Shown here: in pieces, positions 3,001 through 45,000 of the stretch
How the letters are laid out: each line of letters starts with the position of its first letter
Position numbering within the stretch: position 1 is the stretch's first letter
Assembly: GCA_010093705.1 (NCBI GenBank)
Contig: MU006092.1
Coordinates: 1,516,111 to 1,580,110, forward strand
Direction: 5' to 3'
Length of the DNA stretch: 64,000 bases
From: Patellaria atrata CBS 101060
Lineage: Eukaryota; Ascomycota; Dothideomycetes; Patellariales; Patellariaceae
The notes under the pieces: model-generated
Seen by the model: only the letters and a program-made list of their open reading frames with translations
The model's database searches: none
What the model was told of the DNA's origin: nothing
Made by a program: the position numbers and the translations under genes

Positions 3001-6000
3001 GCACTGTAAAGACAAACTGTGTAACCTCCTAACGAACTGGGAAGTCATCAGGAGTAGTGGCTCAGAGTCAAATCCGTTATCTTGCTGCCGTGAGGGCTTA
3101 GCTTTCATAGACTTCCCCGCTTGGAAAATGCAGAAGATATGCAGAATACCCCTGCCGTTGTCAAACTGAAGAATGGGGTCTTGTTTCAATTTCATACTGA
3201 CCTTACCTATCGGTCCTGTGAAGCATGAGGGTGTACAGACTGTGCGGAAGGTGACTACGCTTTGTTACAACCCATAGCATCACTGCGCATTTTCGAAATC
3301 AGGTATCTGAGTGTAAATTGAACTTGACGGTTGTACAAGACGGCAAGTCGGGACGTGGGGAGCACAATACCATTGCAGCGGATGTATTCTGCAAAGTAAC
3401 ACACTTCGACGAGACGAGCCGAAGACAACGTCGGGCGATTTATGTCACCTGTGCATCCGGACAGGGTTGTGTTGACAGTGCATCGGCAATATCGAGGTAA
3501 ACCAAAAAAAGACATGTTCACTGAATAAAACAAGATGATAACAATTCATATCCTCTCCAGTCCCCGCAAGTGGAGGGACCGTATCCTTGGAATATCTACT
3601 GCAGTTTCCAAATGTTGGTACATTACTTCGAATCAGTAAGATAATGAAACGAGATGAGCTATTACAAGATCACCACATCTGTGCGCACTGTATAGAACTA
3701 CACGAGGTTTCCAGGGTATCTAGTCGTCGATCAAAATCATTCAAGGCATCGTTATTTTGTGATACGTGTCAAAAGTCCTCTTCGATGCGAGTTCAGCTGG
3801 AACACCATGCCCACCCGCAAGATCCATATCGGTACAGCGAACCTGCTTGTTGAAGGTCCGCATAGTTCTAGGCTACGAGGTACATCCATTACCAACACAT
3901 AGTGGGGAACTTAGAAGTATCAACATTGGAAGAAGAATAGGTTCTCGAGGCGATTATTGCCGGAATACTCACCATTTGTTAGGCAAATCTTACCTCAGGT
4001 CGCCACAGAAGCCTCGTGCAGTGGCAACAATACCTCGAGAGTATTGAACCGACCAACCATCGTTATCCGATACTGATCCACCCCGATAAACACGAGCGCC
4101 GTACATGAGGATGCAACACGATCCTGAGAGCGGGGGATGTCCAATACCCAGAGTATGGATGCCTACAGCCACGCGACCTGGAATCAGCGATATGCGGCTC
4201 GCCGAAAACGCAGCGGAGGTATTCTGGGGCTTGGATAAATACTTTAACGGGTATACAACAGACGATCACTCGTCAAGAGACGGCAAGCTCGCTACTTTAT
4301 CGAGGTTGTATGCGAAACGTTGAACTCAACCTTCGTGGAATGAAACGAGTCGTTGCTCTTGCAGGACGATCATAAGTCGCTGAAATCTATGATAAGAAGT
4401 GGCAATATCATGCAGACCACCCTTTGTCGAGTCCTTCAGAAGGAATGATTGACCAAGGTCGGCGACTGTATGAGAGCGGGGTTCGGCCAGAGGTAGGCAC
4501 AAGTATTGTTCCTGTACGGTATGTTAACGAGAGAAGTAGATTCTATTTTCCTGCCTTCGAAGGCAATGATTTATTGTCTGTGCAAGCGGGAATAAGCTGA
4601 GCGATGGCAAAAAGCATTGATACCCACGAGTTCTGCGCCGCGTAAATGTCCGAACACCACGAGCTGTTACGGCAAGCACGCGAGAGAGGCGCTACGGCCA
4701 TTCCGTAGATGCAGTTTGATAGCCCAGTTCTTCAAAAGAATACCGTTGATGGCGGAAATACACTTCAGCGGCAAATTCACCGGATAGAAGACATCGCCGA
4801 CTGTTCTGCGAATGTATCAGGGACGGGAACAGGTCGTGACGATAAAACAACCTAGAATTTCAAACCCAAAGATTTACCGCAGCTGAATTACAGTAGAGAT
4901 CCATCAGCTCTCTCCGGAGTGCCCATCTCAGTTCGCCTCCTACCTTGAAATTTCTTTCACGCGACTAGTCTTCCACATTTCTAGTTGTCAATTTCAAGAT
5001 TCCCTAGTCATTCACGTACAAGCTCTATTTGATCTCTATCATATTCATTGCTGGAAATTTCTTACCTTACGATATTTATTACCAAGCTTTTAAGGTACTT
5101 CCCTCAACGCCTGTAGATTTACCTTCTCCAAAGTTTGTCCGCTTTGTTATATCACTTGTACAGTATATCAGCATCCTACCGTCAATCATTTTTACAGTGG
5201 TGAACAACGTGTGAACAGAGGGACACCAGAATTGACGTCCAGCTTTCTGGAAAATGTTCACGAGGTCGAGTTCATGCCTAGAATCACACTCCAAGAGTTA
5301 CTTATCAATCCAGAGCCAGCGTTTCTTCTCGTTATCGAAACTACAATTCTCGTATGCATTCTTCTAGTGATATGAAGGGTAAGAAACCTAGCGCCATTCC
5401 AGTTCATCTGATGCTACATCGTCCGCGAAGCAGATGGTTTCAGTACGTAGTTCCGTAGCATCTCATAGCCTTCCAACGAAACAGTTGAACAAAAGTAAAT
5501 AAAGCAATCCAAACTCAACACCATCACACTCGGTCATGACAAAATGATGTTCTGAAATGTTTCGTAGTCTTATCGCCCTTGTGCTTTATCCCATGTTGCG
5601 TTTACAGTCTCCTATGAACTCATTCGGAGATTTTCTTCCCTACACCTGTCCTTTATAAAGTACATTCTACACGCCTACCCATCGGTCCAGATTAACTCGT
5701 CAGTACTAGATTGACTATACTTACCATGTTTGTCCCGGCGCAGGTACTCTGCATGGGAGCTTCAAGTCCTTTTTCGTTCGACGGGATTTGTGTGTTGAGC
5801 CCATAATGGTTGAGCATTAGGAATGATTATGACCGATGTTTCGGTTCTCCTGCTGAGATGCCGGTTTGGTTTTTGTTTGCTCTCTACTCTGTTGGTAGAG
5901 TAGTGAGAGAGGTGTCGATATCGGTCAAGCATAGTAAGCAGAGAGCTCCCCGTGCCCTCCTTCGATTAACAACCCCTTATCAGTCTTTCGATCATATCGC

Positions 6001-6205: not shown

Positions 6206-8394
6206 CTACTCCGGCCCATCCTCCCGCTTGATAGGATGAAACAGCATACCCCTCAAACACATCCTCCCACTCCCCTCATTCTCCTGCTTCGCACCCCCCT
6301 CACCCCCCTCAATTTCACCCAACCACCTCCTCCACACCCTCGGTGCAAAATCGCTATTGTAATAAAAGCTACTGCCTTTCAAATTATGCTCTCCCCACCC
6401 AAACGGGCTCTCATGGGGCTTTTGCGGGTAGTTGAAAATCTTATCCATATACTCCAGGTCCCAGTTGTGGTCGAAATAGACCGGGTGCGGGGCGTAGACA
6501 GCTTTGAGACCGTAGTGGAGACACATTGTCGGGGGGAACATCTCGGCGAACATGTTGCGCTTCTTGAGGACGTTTTCGTCGTGCATGGTCTGAAGCAGAC
6601 GGCGGGAGAGGCGGGAGACGGTGACGATGGCGGCGCGGCGAGGGGGAGGGGGGAACTTGCTGTTGTAGCCGTTTATATCGTTGCGGAGGGGCCAGTTGGT
6701 TACTTCGACGTCGAAGAGGGGGTTGAAGGATATGAAGTCGGCGGGTTCGTCGACACCCCATTGGTTGTTGTCCTCTTCGTAAGAGGATGGGGGAATGGTT
6801 CCGGTGATAGAGGGAAGCATGCCGGTGTTTTCGAATTTCAGAGGACCCCAGATTGGTGTCTTGCCACGGTTTGCTGTCTCCTGATCAACCATGGTGGAGA
6901 ATTCGTTCCAGTTGCCGTGCTTGCGCGGAATCCAGAACCAAGCACTCCGTTCCCAAAGGCCCTTGCGGGGCTGCTTAGTTGCCCAATCCGCGATCCGCGA
7001 GGTGAGTTCATAATAATGACCCGAGTATCTGAGGTCCATTTCCCAGTTCCAGAAATAGTCGTATTCGGGGTGCTGCTGCGCAAACCACTGCAGCGGCATG
7101 TGTGGACTTCTATAAACGCCGTGAATTTCACCTTTTGGGTTTACATCCAGCTGGAAGTCGAAAGGACCAGGGTAGTAGGCTCTCATTTGTGGAACCGACC
7201 AAAGCGTTGCGAGACCCCAGAACTCCTCCGGAAGGTTCTCGTGGATGGTGCGGTTATAGATCTCTTCGGAGGCGAAGATCGGTATGTTTTCATCTTTGAC
7301 ATGTAGTAAAAGATGCACGTCATATTCACCGCCTGATTTCAGGGAAAGCTCGTTGATCATAGCACGTAGAGTCATGATACGATACGGATTCCACTTATAT
7401 CCTGTCCAAACGCGCAGTACAAAGGCTTGTCGTACGAGTTTCTTCTTGTCGCTTTGGGAATCATCATGATATCTCTGCTTGTTCTTCTCATAACATTTTG
7501 CCTGTGCCTTGCCCCAGTCCATCTTACGGTAGTCAATCTTTCCTATAACGTCGAATATCTTCTCACTACCAGCTCTTTCAGACTTATCTCCTAATCCAAG
7601 GCCTCCATCTTCAGGGTTATACCCGTACCCGTACGGAGCGAAGCGTCCGAAACGGTCAAAGCATTTGTCCTCGGTTAAAGTTAGTTCTTCATACGATCCA
7701 AAGAACGGCTCAGTCATGTTTTGCGGGACCCCAGGATAAGCGTAAATGTCTGGCGCATGGACATTTTCTTCATCGTCCAAATAGCATTGTTCAATGGGCT
7801 GAAAATTGTCAAAGAATTCCAACGACTCATATTGCGGATAAGGGTTGAAAGGGTCGGGATCGAGTGGGAGAATAGGCTCTGAAGAAGGAGGTGCGGCGGC
7901 CTCAAACGAAGGGGACTGCGAATCAGGCGTTGTAGTATTAAAGTTCTGTTCGGATACATAATCGGAGTAAGGAACTAGTAGTTTAACGCCATTGTAGAAA
8001 CCACCAAGTCTATAAATTACATAGGTCAGTTACTATGCTATACTTCAAAGATGCTATCATCCTACTTTGGGTACAGTTCCCAAGGAAACACCAATTTCGG
8101 TTTTTTGTGTTCCTCAACCCATTTGTTGCGCCGATGGATTCCCCCCGCAATGATGGCCGATAGGAATAGTAGAACTGCAGTTGCTAATACGATCAACCGC
8201 GCGGAGAACCTCGGTTGAGAGAAGACTGCATCCTTCGGACTCAGAGAACGCCATCGGAATTTCCTCCAAGACAGAGGGCTAAAGGGTGTGGATGCGCTCG
8301 AAAGCTCGTGTTCGGGTAGTTTCTCGTAAGAAAAGTTCGTCCTGAGCTTAGGGAAGGAAATCAAGCCGGCAAGTCGCGACAATGTGGGATTCAT
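6206..8394 (-). CDS. DUF3405 family type II membrane protein
   Basis: Two exons, 8394..8066 and 8009..6206, give 710 aa. The 56-bp intron has a GTAGGA donor, CTGAC branch site and TATAG acceptor. The ATG at 8394 is preceded two codons upstream by an in-frame TAA, so the start is firm. Near residue 65-85 there is one hydrophobic segment (LIVLATAVLLFLSAIIAGGI) after a basic cytosolic tail, which gives a type II signal-anchor layout. The large C-terminal part is rich in Trp and Tyr, with stretches such as WNWEMDLRYSGHYYEL and WGLATLWSVPQMRAYYPGPF, which I recognise as the fungal DUF3405 family. Members resemble Golgi/ER glycosyltransferase-type proteins in topology and have an acidic WNWEMD patch, but the activity is not established. 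Family assignment is confident; function is unknown. Confidence 0.9.
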
Positions 8395-10513: not shown

Positions 10514-12690
10514 CTCTTCGGTTGGGTCAGAGGAATGCTTTTGCTCTCTTCTGGCAGTCTAAGGAGTGGCCAATGACTTCTCTTCAAGAAACGGATGATG
10601 ATGATGGTGAGTATAGGAAGCACTGATATGTAATCAGAATGTTTGTTTCCTTTGTCATGAGTGTTGACGCTCATACTACAAAGGTGTGCGCAGTCACAAG
10701 ACATCAAGCGTCCACATGTGTCATACCATGTCACACTCTCATGCATGTGAAGGCGAGAGATGAAAATTGACATAGTACCGTGATTTGGCAATGTCTCTTT
10801 CTGGATCAGCAGGGAGGTGTTATCCCAGACCACCTGGTATTCTAATTGATGCTATCGTGAACGAACAAGGGTAGGTATAGAAATCGTGGAACTTTTGGTC
10901 AATAAATCTTTGCTAACGAATGAACTTCGCAAACAGAGGTACTAAGATTGCCATGGAAATGGTCTCTCAGTAAATGTAACAAACTTTCTCACCGGCCCAT
11001 TATCTTCCCTTGGGTCATCATCCTTCTTCCATTCTACGTAATCGCACTCATCAGCCGTCTTGTCACACGTGTCTGGCTTCAGCATTGAATTAAGTAGGAA
11101 AAGGGGAAAACCAATATCTCCGATAGAGGCTCAAGCATCTAAATAACCACCTCCCCCAAATGTAGCGAAAAGCAAATAGCAAAACGGTTCCCACCTGCTC
11201 TTCAAACCCTGTTTTTTTTTTTTTTTTTTTTTCTGATCATATCACCCATATGGTAACAGATTGTTGGACAGATAATGGCTCCTCAAAGGGATGAACACGG
11301 CCAGTATCATTGCGGCGTGGTTTGTCCGTGATTCACGTTGACCCGATATTACGTTACCGGCCACATTATGAAAGAAGCTAGTAAAATATTGTATGGAGTG
11401 TTAAAGGCATAGTCATGGTGTTTGCCTGTTTACGTGGGTTCGGTGAGGGAAGTTATGGAGAACGTAAGAGTTTGTTGATGATCATTGGGTATGTATAAAG
11501 AACTTACGGGTATCGAATGACATGACTGTTCGGTCTTGTGGGTAGAGTCATGCTAACGAGATTTTGAATTGTAGTATGGTATCACAGGATCGAACGTATG
11601 GCCTAGTCTACTGCCTTTTTGGGGTTACATAGCCCGCGCAGCTCCCTCTTGAGAACTATCTACAACTCAAATTAACGCGGGTCTTAAACAGTCCATCGAG
11701 TGAAAGTGCTAACTTCGGGTGAATTCCTTGAAGACGCAACATTGCCAAACAAGGGAACAAGGGGGAACATAGTTATGAGCCATTTTGCTAGGAATTCCTC
11801 CCTCACCTTACCCCTACACCTCCATGGCGTTCACGCAGTGTCCACTTTCCAATGATGCTGGACTCACTGCCCGATATCATGGGGAACATCACCATGATTC
11901 CTGACTACTGCTTATCACCACCTGGTTATATTGATGATGGACATCATCACCTCCCATCTCCCATCTCGTACCTTTGATTTCCGGTTGGGCTTGTAAGCCC
12001 CACAAACCCCAAATAACACATGTCTCTCATCTAGGCACCACAAGCCCAAAACAATGAAAGCTGATACTGTGTAGTGGGGAAACCCTCTCTGTCCTGTTTC
12101 TCCAAGAATCTGTCAAACTTTGCTGCAACGGTGGAAGAGAACGTCGGGACTTTGTATATGAGCAGAGGCTCGTATCTGGTTCGTTTCGCAAGACAGGGTC
12201 AAGCGGATCATGATGGTATGCTGGTATGCTGCGAACTCCCGCACGTGGAGTTGAATTATAGGTATCATTCTTTTGTGCAGCGGTATAATGATGAATTCTC
12301 CGTCGACAGGATCTTTTCTACGGTTTCGTTTACATCATGATATCTGCTGGACTCTTAACGCCCTGCCGGAGCGCAGAACTAATCTCAAAGCTATTGTAAA
12401 TGGGGTTTACGAAGGAACTGATTTCTCGCTCTCGTGTCTATTTTCTTTTTTTCTTCACTCCATAATTCCTCTGTGATGATTGTGAGTAATGCTCCATTGT
12501 TGTACTCGCCATTATGTTATCATTTCAGCGTTTTTTTTATCATCATTATTCCTTGGTTATCCAGATTGATAATATATAGAACTTACTACGGAAGCACAAT
12601 TCAGTGCATTTCTATACAGCGCAAATCCGCGCAATCTTCAATTTTGCGGCGTGTCCGAGGACGATATTGCTACTTGATTCCAACACAGAC
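10514..12690. other. gene-poor stretch
   Basis: No gene is supported. Short ORFs at 12074-12476 and 12434-12724 look random. The stretch is AT-rich and leads into the repeated TATA/CT-tract block. A 21-base T run lies at 11212-11232. Confidence 0.5.
11212..11232 (+). repeat. poly(T) run of 21
   Basis: An uninterrupted run of 21 T on the plus strand. No retroposon body or target duplication could be recognised beside it, so it may be a simple homopolymer. Confidence 0.8.
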
Positions 12691-14544
12691 TTATAAAGAG
12701 AGAACAAAGGATAGGAGCAACTAGAGAGAAGAGATCTTAATACACCCACCGACAGCTGATATGATCACTAGAGTCGCATGACCACGCCGCTCTCTAACAT
12801 ATCTGGTCATGTAAAGCCCTCCTTTGTTAGTCCTCGTCTACAGAACCTTCATCTCTCTCTCCTTAATTAGTGATGGAGACCTCAAGGGAAAAGTTCAAGT
12901 GTATTTAGTTCCGACTCTGTTTCTGTGCCCCTACTGTCTCGCAATCTTTTGGCTCCACTTTTTTGTCGCTCTTAATGAAGTTTGGTGATGGAGATCATTA
13001 CTTCATGTCGATGTTAGCATTCATCTAAAACATGTATTTGGGATCTGTTACGTTATCTAGCAATGATTGTGCGATCCCTAGGATACTGTCTGCTCTCGTG
13101 CCCGCCTATTGATCATATATTCTCTCGAAGACCGCAAATTTTCAGGAATACTATTTTAGCTCACATTCCCATGTATCTCTTAAACCACTGCTAAAGCTAC
13201 GGTCAATATGGAAGAAGAATGATTTAAATGGGAAGAGTTGAAAGGGGGAGTTGATTTTATACGCCAGCATCCTAACACATGGATCACTATATCAGCTGCA
13301 CGGATTATTATTATACCAAGGTTCGTAGCATCTGAGGGATAAGCCTTAGGATTGCCTCGTTACATGCGTACTGCACGTTGTCTTTTGCATGTCTTTGTTA
13401 TATCCAGGCGCCTATAAAACAACGTCTCGATGCTCAACATTTGTAGCTTCCACTAAACTTTTCTTCTAGCTATTCCCTCCAAGTTGGAAGCTGAAATCCT
13501 TCGGAGAGCTCCTATCGCAGAAAATTGTGGATTCAACCTTCTGCATGATTTTACCGAATCCAACGATTTGAGGAGAGTTTCTCCTTAAACTCTTCATTTT
13601 CTCTTAGATCTCCCGTTACTTTATGGCCCAGGTTGTTTGAGTGATGGATCCCTTAGAGGCACTATGATGAGGACAGTCATCATCTCGTAGTCTTGATCAC
13701 TTGCAGTTTTTGATTGATATGATTGTCTATTATATTCCAACCACCTATAGACCACTTTTCTATCGGTTCTTTTCTTCATTCGTTTCCTGCGCAAATACTC
13801 ATCCAATACGAGGAAATCCAGCTTGAAGGGCAATGATCTCCGCGAGCACGCCCGAGAATCTTCCTTATCCGGCTTATCAAAATAGATAATGGACCTTTAT
13901 GTGAACCGAAGAGGGAGAAAGTGGAGGGAAGAGACGGACTTAATATATCCTTGGATATTCCTTCCAAATAACGGTTTGCTGGGTTCCATGGGGTGAGTTG
14001 AGTGAGAAAGTAGGAAGACAGAGGCAAATAAGGAAGTTGATATACTTATGTAGTGCGGGAATGTACGTGTAAGGGTCATGGAACGTTTTTCTACAACTAT
14101 CATTTCTATCATTGTCGTTTAGTTCTTGTTCAATTTCCACTTTAACCCCTTTAGCGGGTAAAGTCGGACAACCCCTTTTGTTGTATTTATTGCGTTCTTT
14201 CGCCTTCCATTCCACACCAGCCTCTTAAGATAGTTCGGAGGTTAGGGATCAAAGGAGGTCGTGACGTTAATACTAACCAACATCATATTCTTATTCAAGC
14301 GATGCTGGTCAAAACCGCATATCTTCGTTTGTCTAAATACTCAAACCCCCTATTGTAAAGATGATCAGCATCACTATCTCACCAAGGACCTATCATACTG
14401 TTCATTTCAACCTCGTTCTTTTACCCTCAGTCCAGAGTGTCTGAAATCCACTTACCCTTCCAACGATAAAAGGTGTTAGTCGAGACTTAACAGGGGCAAT
14501 TTTACTCTTTCTTCATAAAATTAATAACCTTATGATGTCGACTT

Positions 14545-14590
14545 CAAGAAAAGGAGAGAGGAAGATAGGGGAGGTAGGAGTGTATATACC
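14545..14590 (-). promoter_or_regulatory. TATA + CT-tract module (clear copy)
   Basis: Minus strand: GGTATATACACTCC followed by a nearly pure CT tract of about 40 nt ending in TTTTCTTGAAG. The first ATG downstream opens only a very short frame (ATG AAG AAA GAG TAA), so no protein is implied. Confidence 0.5.
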
Positions 14591-15072
14591 CTGCGTCCTC
14601 GGATTCAGTAAGACACCAGCTGAGTTTTGCGTCAGGAGTTCAGTGATGCATGACCCCTGAACATGTCCCTCGCAGTTGGTTCACGGCGCTGTTTTCTTGC
14701 CTTGCATAACTGATAAATACCCTTTAGGGCGATATATCTCAAACTCTTAACTTTCCACTTGGTCAACTTCTTTCGACTAGGAAGAAGGAGACCATTTGCG
14801 GAATGCCATTTGCCCTTCTCCCTCTGGGCTTCTGGTATAGTGCATAAGAGGATGAGATAAACGCATCTCATCGCCTTAAATTGAATTTGCACCTTTCCTT
14901 CCGCTCCTGCTCTTAGTACACTTAAGACTCTTGAACCTGTGTGGTGGTGGAAATCGTCGGGGTACTATTTCGATTTCAATAATTTCACTGCCACTACCTG
15001 TCACGGGTTAGACCCGATAGTTATAAGTGCCTTGGATGATCCAGCGGCTTAGTCAAACTATACTTTAGTAGA

Positions 15073-15124
15073 ACAGCATATGCTGTCTCAACACTTTCTT
15101 TCCTTAAGTTGAAGCTTAAGCTTC
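15073..15124. promoter_or_regulatory. two perfect 14-bp palindromes
   Basis: ACAGCATATGCTGT at 15073-15086 and GAAGCTTAAGCTTC at 15111-15124 are both perfect palindromes, 24 bp apart, inside the module array. They could be dimeric protein-binding sites or small cruciforms. Nothing ties them to a gene. Confidence 0.5.
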
Positions 15125-15368
15125 ATGTACATACAGCAATATACCTTTCAGTTTCCATCTGAGGTTGAGCCATGACACTACCCCATTCATTCCTTGGGCG
15201 TGACAATTATCCCCATTATGAAGGTCATATTATTGTGAGCACTCGATTCGAGAAGTAACTCCCTCCTTATCCTTCTTGACAGTTTTCTCCAGAATTGTCG
15301 TGAATCTTCATAAAAGGTTCCAGATCCGCTACCTCCACCTAAAACATTGTTATGACGGTGTTTAATTG

Positions 15369-15410
15369 TGAGGGTAAGAAAGAGAAGAAAGATGAGGTGC
15401 GATTTATACC
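15369..15410 (-). promoter_or_regulatory. TATA + CT-tract module
   Basis: Minus strand: GGTATAAATCGC followed by a CT-rich stretch of about 30 nt. The first downstream ATG is followed one codon later by a stop. Confidence 0.45.
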
Positions 15411-15989
15411 AGGGCCCGACGTTGTGATGCCCATATGAACACGCAGTCTATGGCGTGGGACACTATGAGATCGTCTTGTCATCGTCCTTGGACCCCTTTC
15501 CCTCTGCGATTCATTGTCTCTTTGGCTCTTTTAAAGTGAAATTGTATGCTTCTTCGTCTGTATACTGTAACCCCTGCTTATCTAAGTTATGACTCCTCTC
15601 TTTCCAGAGACCATCCTCCGGCTTCAAGTGATTCCCCTTTTCCTCCCTCTTTCGGATTAGTAAACGAGACTGGATCAGTGATGACAGTTTATTTGAATGG
15701 TAATGGAAGCTACCTTAGGAGAGTACACATGATACTGGACTCTTAAGATAATTTCAAGCACTCATAGCGCTATGAGATAATAGTCAAACGTCACTGATCA
15801 TTTCACGCCCCTTTTTCTGCCTCCTTTTCCGCCCCTTTTCCCTTTAGAGTAACCCCAACTCGTCCTCAAATCCTCTGGTGCTTCCCAGACGTAGACAGGC
15901 GAGTAATAGTTTTGCTCTGTAAACAATTCGCTTCAGAATCGCTGTAAAACAGCTGGTAGCAGGAGCCCGGAGAACGTGCTGCGGCGTTG

Positions 15990-16030
15990 TGGAGATAAAA
16001 CAAGAAGGAAGGGAAGGAGGAGTTTATATT
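15990..16030 (-). promoter_or_regulatory. TATA + CT-tract module (clear copy)
   Basis: Minus strand: AATATAAACTCCTCC running into CCCTTCCTTCTTG. No ORF of note follows. Confidence 0.5.
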
Positions 16031-16761
16031 GCTTCAAACTGCTGAACTTGTTATTCACTCCCTGCGAATTGGCTTGGGTATCAAGAAGGTTCGGGCTAGA
16101 CCACTTCAAAGCTCACCTGATTCTGGTGGTGAATGGTAGCACGATTCTCACCCTTTCACTGTTGATAGAGGTCACCATCTTCTGCTCGCCCTGGCTTATT
16201 CTTTCAACTTTTGGTTTTGCGACACTTCCTCCAAGCCAAGAGAATAAGCAATAGGGGTGTGGACAAGGCTTCTATTAAAGTCAGGGTGTCAGAGGGTATC
16301 TCCCACAAAGGAATACAATGATGGATGATATATTGATCCCATTATACACAGGGGAATATTGCTGTGATATTGTAATTGGAACAAGAGAAAATCAAGAAGG
16401 GGATTGAAGCCTACAGAGGGTGTTAATATATCTTCGCATACTAAGGCTAATACTGTGTGGAAGTATCGCTGGGATGGACATCGCAATTGCTAAAGCATCA
16501 GTTAATCCAGATTATCGAATTATAATATTGAATATTCTAATCTTTGGACAGTAGTGATTTTCATCAGTGTATTTCGCGATTCAATATTCAACTTTTCTTT
16601 ACGATTCCTTCCCAGATCAGCTAGAATCGAAGCAAGTACCATAAGACATTAGGACGTTTTACGGATGAAGAAGTCGAATCTGTCAGAATATCTATATGGC
16701 AGGATTTTTTTCCAAGCAGAGTCTGTTTAGCCGATCCGGTAATCTCACGATAACACTACTC

Positions 16762-16816
16762 TCAAGAAAAATGAGAGTAAAAGAGAGAGACAATGGAAGA
16801 AGGAGGGTTATATACC
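16762..16816 (-). promoter_or_regulatory. TATA + CT-tract module (clear copy)
   Basis: Minus strand: GGGTATATAACCCTCC, then about 45 nt of mostly C and T (CTCTCTCTTTTACTCTC). No ORF of note follows. Confidence 0.5.
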
Positions 16817-17204
16817 CGTTACAGCATTACTTCCACGTGCAAAGTACCGTCAGCTATGTCAGGGGAACGGACGTTACAATGCATGAAGATTCTTACACTT
16901 GAACGATAATTGTGAGATAAACTGGATCTGCAGGTGCACTGAATATATCGCTTGATTCTCAAAAGAGAGGTTCTATCTAGCTGTTATATACTGTAGGTGT
17001 GTACTAAAACGGACGGAACAGTATGAAATCTATGTCTCAGAAAATAACGAAAATAGCGCTAACACAAGAACTAAAAGGTAGTGTTATGTTAGTTTAGAAA
17101 CCCTAGGTTACGACGATACCGTAATTGTGGTGGTATAAGCGACTAGCTCACTACCCCTGGTTACCACAAGAATCAACACCCCGATAGCTCCACCATCTAA
17201 CAAT

Positions 17205-17247
17205 AATGATGATCTCCAGCCCCTTAAGGGTGATATTGATCATCATC
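17205..17247. other. nested inverted repeat
   Basis: AATGATGATC at 17205-17214 faces GATCATCATC at 17238-17247, with 9 of 10 pairs. The loop holds a perfect 10-bp palindrome, CCCTTAAGGG. A transcript would fold into a stem with an inner hairpin, and as DNA it could be a multi-protein site. It lies about 390 bp upstream, on the minus strand, of the module at 16762-16816. Confidence 0.5.
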
Positions 17248-17430
17248 ATTTCTTCAATCTTTCGTCCTCCTCGTTGCCCTTAAAAGTTATATTTAGACCC
17301 AGGAAGAATGATCCAATCACACTACACTCTCCTGAATCGGAAGGCTTACCACCACGCCCAGGAGACGCGGGAAAAATCGGCTTGTGGATGAGTTAGACAC
17401 CTTTCCACAACAAGGTAAAACAATGTATTA

Positions 17431-17473
17431 TAGAAAAGAGGACGAAGAGGATAGAGGAGAGGGGCCTATATAG
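17431..17473 (-). promoter_or_regulatory. TATA + CT-tract module
   Basis: Minus strand: AGCTATATAGGCCCCTCTCC, then TCTATCCTCTTCGTCCTC. No ORF of note follows. Confidence 0.45.
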
Positions 17474-18190
17474 CTATCGTCCCCACGATCACGTGGAGAG
17501 CTCAAAGCTGACATGGTATGTTAGAAACACAGGGACTGGTGATACTTGTAAAGCACTCTCAAATTATTTGATTAAACTGAAATCTAAATACCTCATAGTC
17601 CCTGAACTGCTGGCAATGAAGATTATCACCACTGACTCTTTCTTCCGCATACAATATCCTTTGACCTTTGGCAAAGGATTCAGGAGCTTAGTCACAGGAT
17701 TTTGCCAATATCATGGAGGTTGTCGCGATTGTAAAAAGTCGGGCTGATGCCTCTGTTAATTCTCCTGGGCGAAAATGACGAAACTTAATGAAGAAAAAAG
17801 AGAATAGAAAGGGAAAAAGGAAATAGAAAAGTGATTATATCACCAATAATGCTAATATAACCCAAGTCCTCCGTTAGAGCTCGCGAATCGTGATACTCAA
17901 AATCTTACCCGCTTGGATTATTGGGATGACGAATAATATATCCTGTGCTCGGTGATGATGATCAGTTTTGCCCATTTCTCCTTATCACTTGGTCTCCCCC
18001 GCAAAACATTCCTGATTTAAAGCAAGACAGCTCGGCGCAGCCTCTCTAGCATATCCACACCCATGAAGGCGCGAATCTGCTTGTTTTCGTATGCAGGACG
18101 CGAGTACAATAGATTGCCTTGAGGATTTCCCGAATGTTTGACTTAGCCCCTGAAGTTCTCTGGGGCTAGTAGCAGACCGCCGTTATGTTT

Positions 18191-18240
18191 TGAAGAAAGA
18201 GAAGGAAGGGAAAAGGAAAGGAGTAGTAGATTTATATACC
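18191..18240 (-). promoter_or_regulatory. TATA + CT-tract module (clear copy)
   Basis: Minus strand: GGTATATAAATCTACTACTC, then CTTTCCTTTTCCCTTCC. A small hairpin follows 20-45 nt further on, with TAGCCCC (18144-18150) facing GGGGCTA (18162-18168). No ORF of note follows. Confidence 0.5.
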
Positions 18241-18604
18241 TGCAGAATCCAGCGTCTCTCCACCTAGGTAAAGCGCGAAGCTGACCTATATCGGGAGAAA
18301 AGCGTCCCGTGATATCTCTAAGTCCTGCGGACTCGGACAATCGTGATGGTGAGTATAGTCCAGAGTGGCTATTGATCATAATCACCCCCATTACCCTTTT
18401 TCACGCGACTTACCCTGCTAACTCCCTCTGTATATCCACCCTTCGCAACGGACGTAATTTAACTCATTAGTGTATGGTGGATATAACAATATGGCTTTTA
18501 CTTCTCGTGGCGATATACCGTCTACAGTGGTATTACGATCTTGAGAAAAAATAAAAGTGGAGAGGGAGGTAAGGGGTTGGGTTTTATTTATTATCCCTCT
18601 TAAC

Positions 18605-25626: not shown

Positions 25627-28600
25627 ATGCTACGGAATAATCGGCCGTTGAAATGCGACGGTCTCAGCAACCAAGTGGGCGTATCCCACTTTATCTGGTC
25701 ATTTTGGTCACTTCTGCTATTCTTGGTGACGCTCGCACATTGCATGACAGATGAAGGAGTTGGAAATTTAAGGTTTGTGAAAAGATATCACCTAACATCA
25801 TGCGAACAGCCCAGCCGTCTAACATGACCTCAGACAGGAAACACGGAACATCTTCTATCATGGATTCGATAATTATATGGAACACGCTTTCCCCGCCGAT
25901 GAGCTTCGTCCGGTGACTTGCGGACCTTTGACACGGGATCGTGCGAATCCTGCACATATCGAGCTTAACGATGTCCTTGGGAACTACTCTCTGACACTAG
26001 TAGACAGTCTCTCCACGCTTGCTATATTGGCATCTTCGCCTCCGGAGAAGACAGACGGTCGTAACCCCTTAAAGGACTTTCAAGATGGGATCGCTGCGCT
26101 AGTACAGTTATACGGTGATGGAAGAGACGGCCCCTCAGGACAAGGCTTACGAGCTCGTGGATTTGACCTCGATAGCAAAGTACAGTTATTTGAAACAAAC
26201 ATTCGCGGGCTTGGTGGCTTGTTGAGTGCGCATCTTTTTGCAACCGGCGAACTACCCATTACAGGGTATGATTCAAAGGTTCAGACTAAAAGAGGCCGGA
26301 CAGGCATTTTCTGGCCGAATGGCTTTGTTTACGATGGCCAACTTCTACGTCTAGCTTTAGACTTGGGCAAGCGACTTCTACCCGCGTTCAATACCCCAAC
26401 AGGAATACCATATCCACGTATCAATCTCCGTTATGGTATTCCCTTCTATGCCACCTCTTCAGTCAGCACTGATCAAGAGCACGGTCAATGTTTGAATACT
26501 CCTGATCCATCAACCGGAAACCCCGAAATCACCGAGACTTGTAGTGCCGGTGCAGGGAGCTTGATCCTAGAGTTCGCCACACTCAGCAGGCTAACCGGAG
26601 ATCCTCAGTTTGAGAATGTGGCTAAAAGGGCATTCTGGGCTATCTGGGAGAGAAGAAGTATGCATGGGCTTATCGGTGCTGATATTGATTCAGAAACCGG
26701 TCAATGGATCGGCCCGTATACGGGTGTCGGCGCCGGTATTGATAGTTTCTTCGAATACGCTTTCAAATCACACATTCTACTCTCTGGATTACCTTACAAT
26801 AGTGGGACGCGAGACGACAACGATCCTGATGCTTTTCTTTCAGTATGGAAGGACGCTCACGCAGCTATTCACCGACATGTCTATCGTGGCGCTGCATTCG
26901 GCCATCCCCATTACATTCAAGTTGATTTGTATACTGGCGCAACCAGAGCTCATTGGATAGACAGTCTCAGCGCCTACTTTCCAGGCTTATTGACGCTTGC
27001 AGGAGAACTGGAGGAAGCAATTGAAACACACCTCCTCTACGCGGCCTTATGGACGCGATATTCTGCTCTTCCGGAAAGATGGTCAACCGCCACTGGTACC
27101 ATTGAGCATGGACTTCGTTGGTGGGGTGGAAGACCTGAGTTTGTTGAATCGACATGGTACATATACCGCGCAACAAATGATCCCTACTATTTGCATATCG
27201 GTGAGATGGTACTACGAGATATTAAACGCAGGTGTTGGACTGCCTGTGGCTGGGCTGGCCTTCAGGATGTTCAATCTGGTGAAAAAACTGATCGTATGGA
27301 AAGCTTCTTTTTAGGGGAAACCGCCAAGTACTTACACTTACTATTCGACCCAACCCATCCTTTGAACAAGTTGGACGCTCCATTCGTCATGACAACTGAA
27401 GGGCATCCGCTTATTATTCCAAAATACTTCCGAAATCCAGAAGTGTCAACCATCTCAAATATGACTCGTGTAAGTCGGAAACGACGTACTAAGGTTTATG
27501 AGAAAGTTTGTCCTGTACCTCCACCTACAGTTCCATTTACCGTCTCTGCTACCGCTGCCAGACAGGACATCTTCCACGCTGCAAATTTAGTTAGGCTTTA
27601 CAAAACACCTAAATCTATAGACGTCGAAGGTCCTTTGGTTGACTTTACTAGTCAACATCCGAGTATAACTGCAGCTGACCTAAGCTCTCCATCTAACTAT
27701 ACATACTATCCTTGGACGCTCCCTCTCAATCTTGTCCCCCAAAATGCGACAAGTGCTAAACTAGCCCTTAGGACCACATTGGATGTTTCTTTTCCCTCAC
27801 AAACGGATGGACCTCTTAATATCGGCGGAGTACAACGTCTAACAAATGGTATTCTCGTCAATTCTATGAATGGTCTCCGTTTGGGGATGATACTGGAACC
27901 TGACAGTATCAAAGCTACTGGTGAAATTGCCTTGAATCAATTTTTCCGAATACATTCCGTTTCCAATGTCCCCTTAGGGAGGGACGAAAAGGTATTTCTA
28001 GAAAGAGAATCAGTTGCAGATTTCAACCCACTAGATCCTTACTTCACCCGAGTCAGGGACATGCAATCTTTGGACATAGTACTCGATATGGAACCCAATA
28101 TTTTATCTTCTATACCTACTTCAGCAAAGAAAGCCGTCGAAGACCTTCTATCATCTGTCAATGGTAGCACTCTATCGTTGGACCTCGATGATCTCTCATT
28201 CGTGGGTGAAGGTGGTGAGGATGGAACTCGATCGATGTTTGACTCTCTCCTTACGAAGATTCAGAACATCCTTTCTACCGATTCCGTCTTTGTGCGGGAT
28301 TCCAATATTCTAGCGGACAATTCCGCAGGCCACGGGCTCTCCTTTGAGCGGACACATATGGAAGCTTCATTGCCCGCTGGCCCTGGGGCCGCTCCAATAC
28401 CTGACATTGACGAGGAGCCTACTCTCACTAGAACATCATCATCGTCTGAAAAAATGGAGAATTCTGATCTCCCATGGGACAAGATATATGTGACTCATGA
28501 TCATCTGTGTGGGCCGACGCTTCCAGCTCACATCCCACGGGAAAACCAGATTCTTGTTATCACACGGGGCAGTTGCTCTTTTTCCGAAAAACTTCAGAAT

Positions 28601-28879
28601 ATTCCATCATATCCTCCATCATCATCCTCTCTCCAGCTTGTTATCGTCGTCTCATATGATGTGGATGAGGATGGTGACCCTAGACTCATCCAGCCATTGT
28701 TAGATAAACAGCAAACCCTTACGAGCGGGCTGGCCAGACAGAATCCAATTCCACTCGTCATGGTTGGTGGAGGTGATAAAACTATGGACCTTCTGAAGCG
28801 AACAAAGGGCTTGGGTATCAGAAGAAGATGGAGCGTTTTGAGTCAAGGAGTCAAGATTGGGAACTTAATTGTTCTTTGA
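25627..28879 (+). CDS. MNL1: EDEM-type alpha-mannosidase-like protein (GH47), Mnl1/Htm1
   Basis: Exons 25627..25772 and 25834..28879, with a 61-bp intron containing CTAAC before CAG, encode 1063 aa. The N terminus has a hydrophobic signal segment (FIWSFWSLLLFLVTLAHC). The GH47 domain follows to about residue 520, with FYHGFDNYMEHAFPADELRP, HIELNDVLGNYSLTLVDSLS and a WTACGWAGLQDVQSGEKTDR motif near its end. A protease-associated (PA) domain sits near the C terminus (DHLCGPTLPAHIPRE, ITRGSCSFSEKL). Htm1/EDEM proteins trim mannose on misfolded ER glycoproteins and mark them for ER-associated degradation; in yeast the enzyme works with a PDI. A sequence-long GH47-plus-PA architecture fits EDEM1/3-like fungal proteins rather than the smaller secreted mannosidases. 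No retention motif such as HDEL is visible at the C terminus. Confidence 0.94.
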
Positions 28880-33500: not shown

Positions 33501-33585
33501 GCTCTGTGTGAGGCCCATCGTACACTCGACCGTTTCTTTCTTCAATATCGCCTTTCGGCGCCGTTCTTAGTTTCATCATTCCGAC
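30555..33585. other. gene-poor stretch
   Basis: Three kilobases of AT-rich sequence with only short, featureless ORFs on both strands. No tRNA, repeat array or recognisable protein remnant was seen. The first part holds the promoter of the Cys-rich gene, the last part that of the SLATT gene. Confidence 0.55.
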
Positions 33586-34752
33586 ATGAACTTCCTACCT
33601 CGAATTCTCCGTCCTCAAAAAGAACCAGGAATGTCAGTCGAAGATGGACTCAGTGACGCGACCTTCTTCCAAGGCCCCGGTGGAAGGCGAGCGACACTCA
33701 TTCCAGCGGACGACAAATTAACAACATTTCGTTTAATGGTTGGAATTCAGTCCACGAGTTCTTTGGGTGGTGTTGCTGGTCCGTTTGAATTTGCTGGACG
33801 CTCCGCTCCGAACATCGGAATATACAACCGAGTTGTACAGAGAGAGAGAAAATCCAAGCAAGGATATAAATTCGCCTCCCTCCTCATTAATGGGTGTCTT
33901 GGGCTTCAAATAGTCGTTGCCGCTTCGCTGACCGCAATGGGCGCTGCAAACTCAGACAGCAAAGCCGTCACGGCTTTCGGAGCTATTAATACTATAATAG
34001 CGGGTATGCTGACATATCTAAAAGGGTCTGGTTTGCCGAATCGGCTACGATATTATGAGAACGAGTGGAAAAAAATTCGCGAATACATTGAACAGCGAGA
34101 AAGGGAATTTACCCGGCCGGACTGCGATCTAGATGTTCTCCAAACTGTTGAAACCATCGAGAATATGTACGAGGAAGTGAAAGCAGATATACAAACAAAT
34201 ACTCCGGACAATTTCGTCAGCGTAGGTGATGTGAGAAATCGAAAATCACCGACGCACCCAGCACCGAGACTATCCTCAGTTAGAGGGTTTGGGGATAAAC
34301 ATAAAGATCTCGACTCAAGATACGGTGGTACAGCAAGACATTTCATTGCGGACATTGGAGATAAGGTAAAACATATGGGAGCCTTAGAGAAAGACGTAGA
34401 GAAAGAATTAGAGTCAGGACGAGCTAAGGCTGTGAATGTCGGGAAAGACTTTGAAAAGGAATTAGAGGAACGTCGGTCAAGACTATCGAACGTAGGCCTT
34501 GAAATAGACAAGGAACTAAAAGTTCATGGCCAGAGAGTAGAGGACATTGGAAAAGAAGCCGAGCGACAGGGGGGGAAACTAGAAGAGGCCGCAAGAGAAG
34601 TCAAAGAATTTGCGCAAAGAAGAATGGGTCACCTTATCGGCCAAATGACTGACTTGCGATCTCCTGCTATAACCATCAATCTCGCACCTAATGAACAACC
34701 ACCGGTTGATGAATCGAAGAAAAAACATGACAGCTCTCCACACTCACTATAG
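33586..34752 (+). CDS. fungal SLATT-domain (2-TM) protein
   Basis: A single exon encodes 388 aa. Residues about 75-175 match the fungal version of the SMODS and SLOG-associating 2TM effector domain (SLATT): IGIYNRVVQRERKSKQGYKF leads into two membrane segments (about 96-120, FASLLINGCLGLQIVVAASL; about 127-147, AVTAFGAINTIIAGMLTYL) and then RLRYYENEWKKIREYIEQRE. The C-terminal 200 residues are highly charged, with repeated helical blocks (ELESGRAKAVNVGKDFEKEL, ELEERRSRLSNVGLEIDKEL), suggesting a coiled coil. In bacteria SLATT proteins are proposed pore-forming effectors of nucleotide-signalling defence systems; the fungal role is unknown. A caspase-like gene lies 1.1 kb beyond, which hints at a cell-death or self/non-self locus. 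Confidence 0.85.
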   Translation: MNFLPRILRPQKEPGMSVEDGLSDATFFQGPGGRRATLIPADDKLTTFRLMVGIQSTSSLGGVAGPFEFAGRSAPNIGIYNRVVQRERKSKQGYKFASLLINGCLGLQIVVAASLTAMGAANSDSKAVTAFGAINTIIAGMLTYLKGSGLPNRLRYYENEWKKIREYIEQREREFTRPDCDLDVLQTVETIENMYEEVKADIQTNTPDNFVSVGDVRNRKSPTHPAPRLSSVRGFGDKHKDLDSRYGGTARHFIADIGDKVKHMGALEKDVEKELESGRAKAVNVGKDFEKELEERRSRLSNVGLEIDKELKVHGQRVEDIGKEAERQGGKLEEAAREVKEFAQRRMGHLIGQMTDLRSPAITINLAPNEQPPVDESKKKHDSSPHSL

Positions 34753-44882: not shown

Positions 44883-45000
44883 AGTCCTGTGACGCAGTGG
44901 TTAGCGTGTCGTTCTTATATTTACGTTCCTCGCTTGCGAGGTTGTATGTATGACCATTGTGGTAATGCGAAAGTCGCGGGTTCAAGTCCCGCCAGGACTA
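44883..45000 (+). tRNA. tI(UAU): tRNA-Ile (UAU) with intron
   Basis: Folds by eye as a complete tRNA. The acceptor pairs AGTCCTG with CAGGACT, with discriminator A at 45000. The D stem is ACGC/GCGT around AGTGGTTA. The anticodon stem TCGTT/TGCGA has a wobble and one mismatch. The loop C-T-TAT-A puts anticodon UAU at 44916-44918. The T arm is GCGGG-TTCAAGT-CCCGC. A 45-nt intron (44920-44964) follows position 37, the standard place, and carries its own CCTCGCTTGCGAGG hairpin. Removing it leaves 73 nt. tRNA-Ile(UAU) is one of the tRNAs that normally carries an intron in fungi. It decodes the rare AUA codon. Confidence 0.93.

Follow-up and report, generated by a model that had tools for sequence, protein, structure and literature searches.

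In Neurospora crassa, 16 of 20 genes for box H/ACA small nucleolar RNAs (snoRNAs) are intergenic, and the class, 136–309 nt in length, is mainly independently transcribed, according to the published description (PMC2780460). The ordinary fungal core promoter for RNA polymerase II (Pol II), a TATA box followed by a CT-rich initiator region, usually occurs once per gene. In yeast, general regulatory factors such as Reb1 cause roadblock termination. The present work concerns a 64,000-nt stretch of the genome of the saprobic dothideomycete Patellaria atrata CBS 101060 (contig MU006092.1, here C4, positions 1516111–1580110; hereafter the window), in which 13 modules with the layout and spacing of the ordinary core promoter stand within 5.9 kb, all on one strand and with nothing recognisable behind them. 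We propose, with what we regard as an even chance of being right, that this locus comprises 13 or more short Pol II non-coding units in tandem, each with a promoter of its own, and that it is one of several arrays of this type in P. atrata. The source assembly comprises 28.3 Mb in 46 contigs, and the DNA that was read amounts to ~0.3 Mb of this one genome. A search of the open-licence literature on such arrays and on fungal snoRNA organisation found no description of arrays of this kind among the papers listed.

Reading by eye identified the 13 modules, each a TATA-like box followed by a CT-rich tract, at window positions 12693–18592, every one on the minus strand. Numbered from the right, these are module 1 (18541–18592), module 2 (18191–18242), module 3 (17795–17844), module 4 (17432–17476), module 5 (16768–16818), module 6 (16378–16435), module 7 (15990–16034), module 8 (15363–15411), module 9 (14545–14592), module 10 (13999–14047), module 11 (13904–13951), module 12 (13216–13266) and module 13 (12693–12748). 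A profile search (R1) found all 13 in place and gave two weaker matches elsewhere in the window at E≤1; R1 was built from these same modules, and their recovery is therefore circular. A separate, fixed rule—TATA[ATC] and, beginning 6, 8 or 10 nt on, a 38-nt run of no less than 78% pyrimidine—found 11 modules on the minus strand and none on the plus strand of 12.6–18.7 kb, missing the outermost two (modules 1 and 13). In the remaining 58 kb of the window the rule found one module on the minus strand and one on the plus strand (three and one when relaxed to 74% pyrimidine). The window as a whole contains 16 strong pyrimidine tracts; a TATA box lies upstream of seven, and all seven belong to array modules (2, 3, 4, 5, 7, 9 and 11).

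The preliminary description of this DNA had reported about twelve such modules in a single orientation, and had proposed a permuted-sequence control. That control has now been run: across 500 dinucleotide shuffles, the fixed rule found a mean of 0.05 and 0.02 modules per strand with maxima of 2 and 1, against the 11 of the real sequence. The observation is thus confirmed as real and more than chance. With two long terminal repeat (LTR)-like inserts removed, the distances between successive modules are, to within 1 nt, 357, 400, 368, 359, 380, 405, 620, 635, 542, 98, 688 and 517 nt. The earlier figure of 350–820 bp holds for nearly all neighbours; it fails for one pair (module 10 lies 98 nt ahead of module 11), and two of the gaps had been enlarged by the inserts. 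In the left half of the array, the TATA boxes differ in strength and the spacing is irregular.

The earlier suggestion that the modules are laid out like a fungal Pol II core promoter is supported by the U3 RNA gene of P. atrata, the only known Pol II gene with which the layout was compared (n=1). The U3 gene lies at 1501–1717 of the examined sequence L009 (Rfam match of 130 bits), and is preceded by a TATA box at 1392 and then a CT-rich stretch with TTCTTC at its end; the array modules are built alike. The likeness is one of layout only, because the R1 profile does not match the U3 promoter at E≤1, and it is likewise by layout that the modules show the TATA-box-then-CT-tract order of a fungal Pol II core promoter. 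In yeast, U3 RNA starts with GUCGAC and is encoded by a gene with an intron close to the 5' end. On this basis, the U3 start in P. atrata presumably lies near L009 1434, ~42 nt after the TATA box, with the Rfam match beginning at 1501. An apparent short intron near the U3 5' end (GTGAGT ... CTGAT ... TATAG, within L009 1434–1510), like that of yeast, was read by eye.

Beyond what the preliminary description covered, the genome contains further arrays, most array units are followed by a palindromic dyad, and the window array carries the two LTR-like inserts. Further arrays emerged in two ways. Firstly, a systematic genome sample of twenty 10-kb stretches taken at set positions (200 kb), for which the dyad was not used, contained 16 modules by the fixed rule, seven of them in a single stretch, L030. 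This is array 2 (contig C3, ~1606.0–1610.0 kb; L030/L031), with plus-strand modules at L031 1817, 2451, 3043, 3560, 5197, 5529 and 5826 and a minus-strand module at 4300. The same sample contained a solitary unit, L019 3955, on the minus strand. Secondly, the exact motif GATGATNATCATC occurs at 11 genome sites (two overlapping), against none for its reversed control. Three of these sites were fetched, and arrays were found at two: array 3 (L045, C6:1076400–1077800), with three minus-strand modules 393 and 377 nt apart, and array 4 (L047, C6:1172650–1174050), with plus-strand modules at 404 and 1115 and a minus-strand module at 942. The third site (L046, C4:210932) has no module. At one mismatch, GATGATNATCATC is found at 169 places in the genome and its reversed control at 73; when two mismatches are allowed, GGTGATNATSATCACC has 74 and 78 sites on the two strands, against 33 and 33. 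The positions of the exact-motif and TATA-pattern matches hint at more arrays near C7:484–487 kb and C17:604–614 kb. A centromeric reading was dropped, two arrays lying ~96 kb apart on one contig. Two other observations concern array 2: one of its units contains a ~55-bp stretch (CATCGCTTATTTTCTGAGCACC...) in tandem repeat (L030 6900–7015), and L030 8060–8320 (C3:1608.06–1608.32 kb) is a dispersed repeat of ~90–260 bp, with 15 further matches at 77–86% identity and a tRNA-like GGTTCGA stretch, which looks like a short interspersed nuclear element.

Units were compared by global alignment of fixed intervals around the TATA box, with shuffled sequences as reference. Over the interval -5..+60, similarity exceeded the shuffles by 5.5 standard deviations (sd) in array 3 (3 pairs), 5.2 sd in array 4 (1 pair), 2.8 sd in array 2 (15 pairs), 1.8 sd among the seven regular units of the window (21 pairs) and 1.6 sd between arrays, but by only 0.9 sd among 21 background modules chosen by the same kind of rule. 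All pairs in array 3 (3/3) and array 4 (1/1), 10/15 in array 2 and 6/21 in the window were above the 95th percentile set by the background pairs. Similarity then falls to shuffle level, at -0.8 to +0.2 sd over +60..+130 and -1.3 to +0.1 sd over +130..+180, and is 0.2 to 0.7 sd above the shuffles over +190..+300. Since within-array pairs exceed background modules of the same kind of rule, a promoter of ~65 bp is common within arrays beyond the effect of selection; the following 120 bp are not.

Likeness is claimed for the promoters only: with the modules masked, 0/66 pairs exceeded the 99th percentile of shuffles, and in a stricter alignment scheme 6/78 inter-module pairs did so. Tandem duplication of whole units, suggested by a loose local alignment, was rejected on these two results. 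The module at 14048 was omitted from the loose, masked and strict alignments, from the alignment with the LTR-like inserts removed, and from the H/ACA search, purine profile and dyad position scoring below. Units do not align over their whole length, their bodies being at shuffle level, as a satellite would not predict; the earlier suggestion of a long-unit satellite with one constrained part describes the pattern, while the similarity between modules is weak for it. In genome searches, the window array (40 of 158 candidates scored) gave LTR matches only, among the matches listed; L030 5700–8900 gave one dispersed repeat and nothing else; and L045, L047 and window 15190–16900 (the last at E≤10) gave self-matches only. 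An expectation-maximization motif search upstream of the modules returned ATCAC-like motifs that were barely over shuffles.

What follows the promoters is without coding signal in the window array, in line with the earlier remark that no module precedes a meaningful open reading frame (ORF). The longest ATG-initiated ORF in the 5.9 kb is 82 aa, against a shuffled mean of 95 aa; in 40 sampled genome stretches of the same length the median longest ORF is 372 aa and the minimum 106 aa. A Pfam search with ten ORFs from the window array gave no match over the cut-off. Across 24 bodies (the array-2 module at L031 5529 omitted), sense ORFs average 21.8 aa, antisense ORFs 27.8 aa and shuffled ones 24.0 aa, with four splice donors in sense and five in antisense. 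With one exception in array 2, treated below, neither the frames nor the splice signals of a cluster of small protein genes were found behind the promoters. Rfam, applied to the window at the gathering threshold and to 12.3–19.0 kb at E≤5, returned no family at threshold in the array and two weak, implausible matches; in L030 it returned a single match, far under threshold. Box C (RTGATGA) followed 45–120 nt on by box D (CTGA) occurs four times in sense and four times in antisense, against a shuffled mean of 0.4 and maximum of 2. The count is the same for both strands, and the GATGA-rich dyad probably accounts for it.

In 13.9 kb of array DNA the dyad, TGAT-N4-ATCA, is present 12 times, against 11 times in 247.7 kb of background. 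When arrays 3 and 4 (L045 and L047), chosen via a related motif, are left out, the window array and array 2, together 11.1 kb, have nine (two overlapping), where the background predicts 0.49; array 2 alone has two against 0.21 expected. In the window, dyads lie at 18373–18384 (~+219 from the module 1 TATA), 17953–17964 (~+282, module 2), 17231–17248 (two overlapping, ~+236, module 4), 16555–16566 (~+255, module 5, where the top match under a longer consensus is another site, at +307), 14362–14373 (~+223, module 9) and 12986–12997 (~+271, module 12). Four is the commonest TGAT/ATCA spacer in the arrays; spacers of 1 (6 times), 10 (4), 3 (3) and 7 (3) are also above background, partly from overlapping GATGAT runs. 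Scored by position, the best match to GRTGATNNNNATCAYC at +180..+300 reaches at least 9/12 in 18 of 20 units when the window array and array 2 are pooled, as opposed to 14.6% of 1140 random positions; among all units scored for dyad position, 22/25 reach at least 9/12. Of the ten units that span more than 500 nt, nine have their best dyad at +200..+300 from the preceding TATA (P ~5e-6), and across all ten it is 246–417 nt from the next TATA, so that in long units its position is tied to the preceding unit (unit c3560, with its dyad at +1063 and a span holding an opposite module and a gap, was omitted from this test). A G/A-rich stretch precedes the dyad: purines rise to 0.60–0.67 at +160..+220, mainly through G over C.

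Two weaker candidates lie to the left of the array. A possible 14th unit on the minus strand (11935–12165), read by eye and under the module threshold, combines a TATA-like CATATACAAAG near 12160 with a dyad at 11935–11946. A TATA-like box TTTATACATACC at 11247, with a GGTGATATGATCAG stretch ~250 nt on at 11498, is possibly another decayed unit.

Module pairs that converge, a plus-strand module followed within 200–900 nt by a minus-strand one, number five in the sequences examined. The best dyad-like site between the two modules scores 11/12 in L009, 10/12 in L019, L031 and L047, and 9/12 in L017; four of five pairs thus reach at least 10/12, against 9% of random 520-nt stretches. The site is near the midpoint in L009 (200/204 nt from the two modules), L019 (259/242) and L047 (297/241), and not in L031 or L017. 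The L009 pair consists of the U3 promoter (1392, plus) and a TATA+CT module at 1796 (minus), 404 nt apart, with the dyad-like site within U3 RNA; that of L019 consists of modules at 3454 (plus) and 3955 (minus), separated by 501 bp, in the middle of which is a GATGATGATGG...GATTATCATG stretch.

These results are consistent with the following mechanism, in which transcription, start sites, termination and product are read from the sequence. The TATA box and the subsequent 30–50 nt of CT-rich DNA would set a Pol II start ~45–55 nt after the TATA box, in or just past the CT tract, giving an RNA of ~150–250 nt. Each unit has a body of ~100–150 nt, variable between units and with reading frames not above chance, followed in most units by the G/A-rich stretch and the TGAT-N4-ATCA palindrome ~200–300 nt after the TATA box. 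A putative dimeric DNA-binding protein on the palindrome may end or insulate the short transcript, with transcription stopped or blocked at the G/A-rich stretch and protein-bound dyad. Such a boundary would permit the head-to-tail packing of units ~380 or 600 bp apart, and a palindromic block would suit head-to-tail and convergent neighbours equally. An array of non-coding transcription units was among three options offered in the preliminary description, and on the evidence of sequence layout it is the best of them.

Several observations weigh against this proposal. TATA and CT tract were used to recognise units, so the promoter likeness is partly selected, and similarity is also mildly raised at -60..-5 (0.6 to 1.6 sd within arrays). 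The dyad was counted in the arrays that had supplied its consensus, although array 2 was found without it, and dyad-like sites of at least 10/12 also lie behind 5/21 background TATA+CT modules, against 2.9% of random positions. In eight units of ~380 bp the best dyad is also 73–163 nt before the next TATA, where an activating site is possible; because of this, these units cannot separate an end site from an activating site. Among the convergent pairs only L019 is a clean case, since L047 had been picked out through its motif and the site in L009 falls within U3 RNA. Array 2 has a 186-aa ORF (L031 4255–4815), the tested part of which (178 aa) exceeds the 95th percentile of shuffles (128 aa); it runs from inside a minus-strand module into an LTR-like insert, and no domain in it passes the cut-off. 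Finally, a genome-wide search with the TATA pattern gave no excess over its reversed control (63 vs 63), which argues that arrays are few rather than pervasive.

The main rival to this proposal is that the units are clustered box H/ACA snoRNA genes, or other guide-RNA genes, each with its own Pol II promoter and a body that differs by RNA target. We consider this unlikely, though a serious contender. The unit size fits that of the N. crassa H/ACA genes, which are mainly independently transcribed in the description used (PMC2780460), U3 of P. atrata shares the promoter layout, and a varying body behind a constant promoter is what guide RNAs lead one to expect. Against this, Rfam, searched in the window array and L030 and not in L045 or L047, contains no family at threshold for the units. 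Rfam covers few fungal H/ACA families. A hairpin-H-hairpin-ACA search (H box ANANNA), run without a positive control, found 1/12 units, matching 1/12 plus-strand controls and 7/72 shuffles. Over 25 bodies the mean folding z-score is -0.01, in a test without power, the U3 control itself scoring -0.11. In addition, snoRNA identity alone would leave the downstream dyad unexplained.

A second explanation, to our minds rather unlikely, takes the dyad to activate, from upstream, the promoter that follows it, and the arrays to be ordinary groups of tiny genes under common regulation, whether or not these code for protein. The dyad position in the eight ~380-bp units suits it, as do upstream regions that are alike in some neighbours (strict score 128 vs a shuffle maximum of 94). 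It is countered by the long units, nine of ten of which keep the dyad at its distance from the preceding TATA and at variable remove from the next, by the common site that L019 and L047 place downstream of both convergent promoters, and by the lack of a coding signal in the window array.

The modules could also be relics, that is, promoters of decayed tandem genes or of an old promoter-bearing mobile element, with no present function; this we hold to be improbable. Uneven TATA strength and spacing in the left half, and the breaking of the array by two LTR-like inserts, are in its favour, and the searched stretches match only repeats elsewhere in the genome, among the matches listed and with the scoring limit given above for the window. 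Units with decayed modules would, moreover, go unrecognised. Unselected copies should decay evenly, however, so the concentration of likeness in the promoter, above the same-rule background and with the next 120 bp at shuffle level, speaks against relics, and unlinked arrays share the layout with unrelated bodies. For the same reason, the earlier suggestion that lost small genes left their promoters behind is a poorer fit, with the same proviso that decayed units would be missed. Lastly, every element of the window array is simple when taken singly, but an artefact of chance or base composition has next to no probability and is refuted by the 500 shuffles, which gave at most 2 modules per strand against 11, and by the arrays found elsewhere in the genome.

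The two inserts, which do not belong to the array proper, are an element of 179 bp at 14999–15177, with a CTACC direct repeat on either side and at least 31 further genome matches, and one of 292 bp at 16911–17202, flanked by ATAAT direct repeats and with at least 15 further matches; both counts are lower bounds. Their ends and 5-bp duplications suggest that they are solo LTRs. As pointers to arrays the LTR copies were of no use: none of six LTR sites (4 kb each) contained one. Elsewhere in the window there are (i) a tRNA gene at 44883–45000 (plus) whose anticodon region carries a long insertion (Rfam 51.7 bits, not reported by ARAGORN), (ii) a 393-aa protein at 33571–34752 (plus) containing SLATT_fungal (PF18142, E 5.9e-41), which is a membrane domain of the two-helix effector type, (iii) a 607-aa open frame with DUF3405 (E 1.1e-193) at 6206–8029 (minus), with a 385-aa open frame opposite on the plus strand, and (iv) a 1000-aa ORF at 25877–28879 that is 100% identical to a P. 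atrata CBS 101060 GH47 protein.

If transcribed, the arrays would represent a fungal class of non-coding genes with a constant promoter and end site and no conserved product, invisible to protein-centred and family-based annotation, as well as a natural example of very short Pol II units 380 bp apart without run-through into their neighbours. As for the role of the RNAs, H/ACA guide RNAs would be the sober option, and a diversified short-RNA repertoire akin to PIWI-interacting RNAs (piRNAs) the bold one. In the latter form, to which we give a slim chance, the arrays would be an independently arisen fungal counterpart of individually promoted piRNA-type clusters, keeping a ~65-bp promoter and a palindromic boundary while the body is free to yield diversified short non-coding RNAs, in several arrays of perhaps dozens of units.

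The arrays share features with other described systems. With the H/ACA genes of N. crassa they have in common short intergenic units of ~140–310 nt with differing bodies and, in N. crassa, mostly their own transcription (PMC2780460); they differ in that no snoRNA is detected in the units by Rfam or by a crude box search, and in their tandem packing on one strand and downstream dyad, features absent from the part of that description used here. A Reb1-type roadblock offers a parallel for the dyad, in that a protein bound to the DNA past a short non-coding unit would bring that unit to an end; TGAT-N4-ATCA is known here as sequence only, its binding protein and terminating effect being putative. 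The motif-dependent (type I) piRNA clusters of Caenorhabditis elegans likewise consist of many clustered loci, each having a Pol II promoter motif and a product of its own (PMC6436959, PMC7917550). There, the precursors are ~28 nt and feed Piwi proteins, whereas the P. atrata arrays, known from DNA alone, combine a TATA+CT promoter with a downstream site ~200 nt off.

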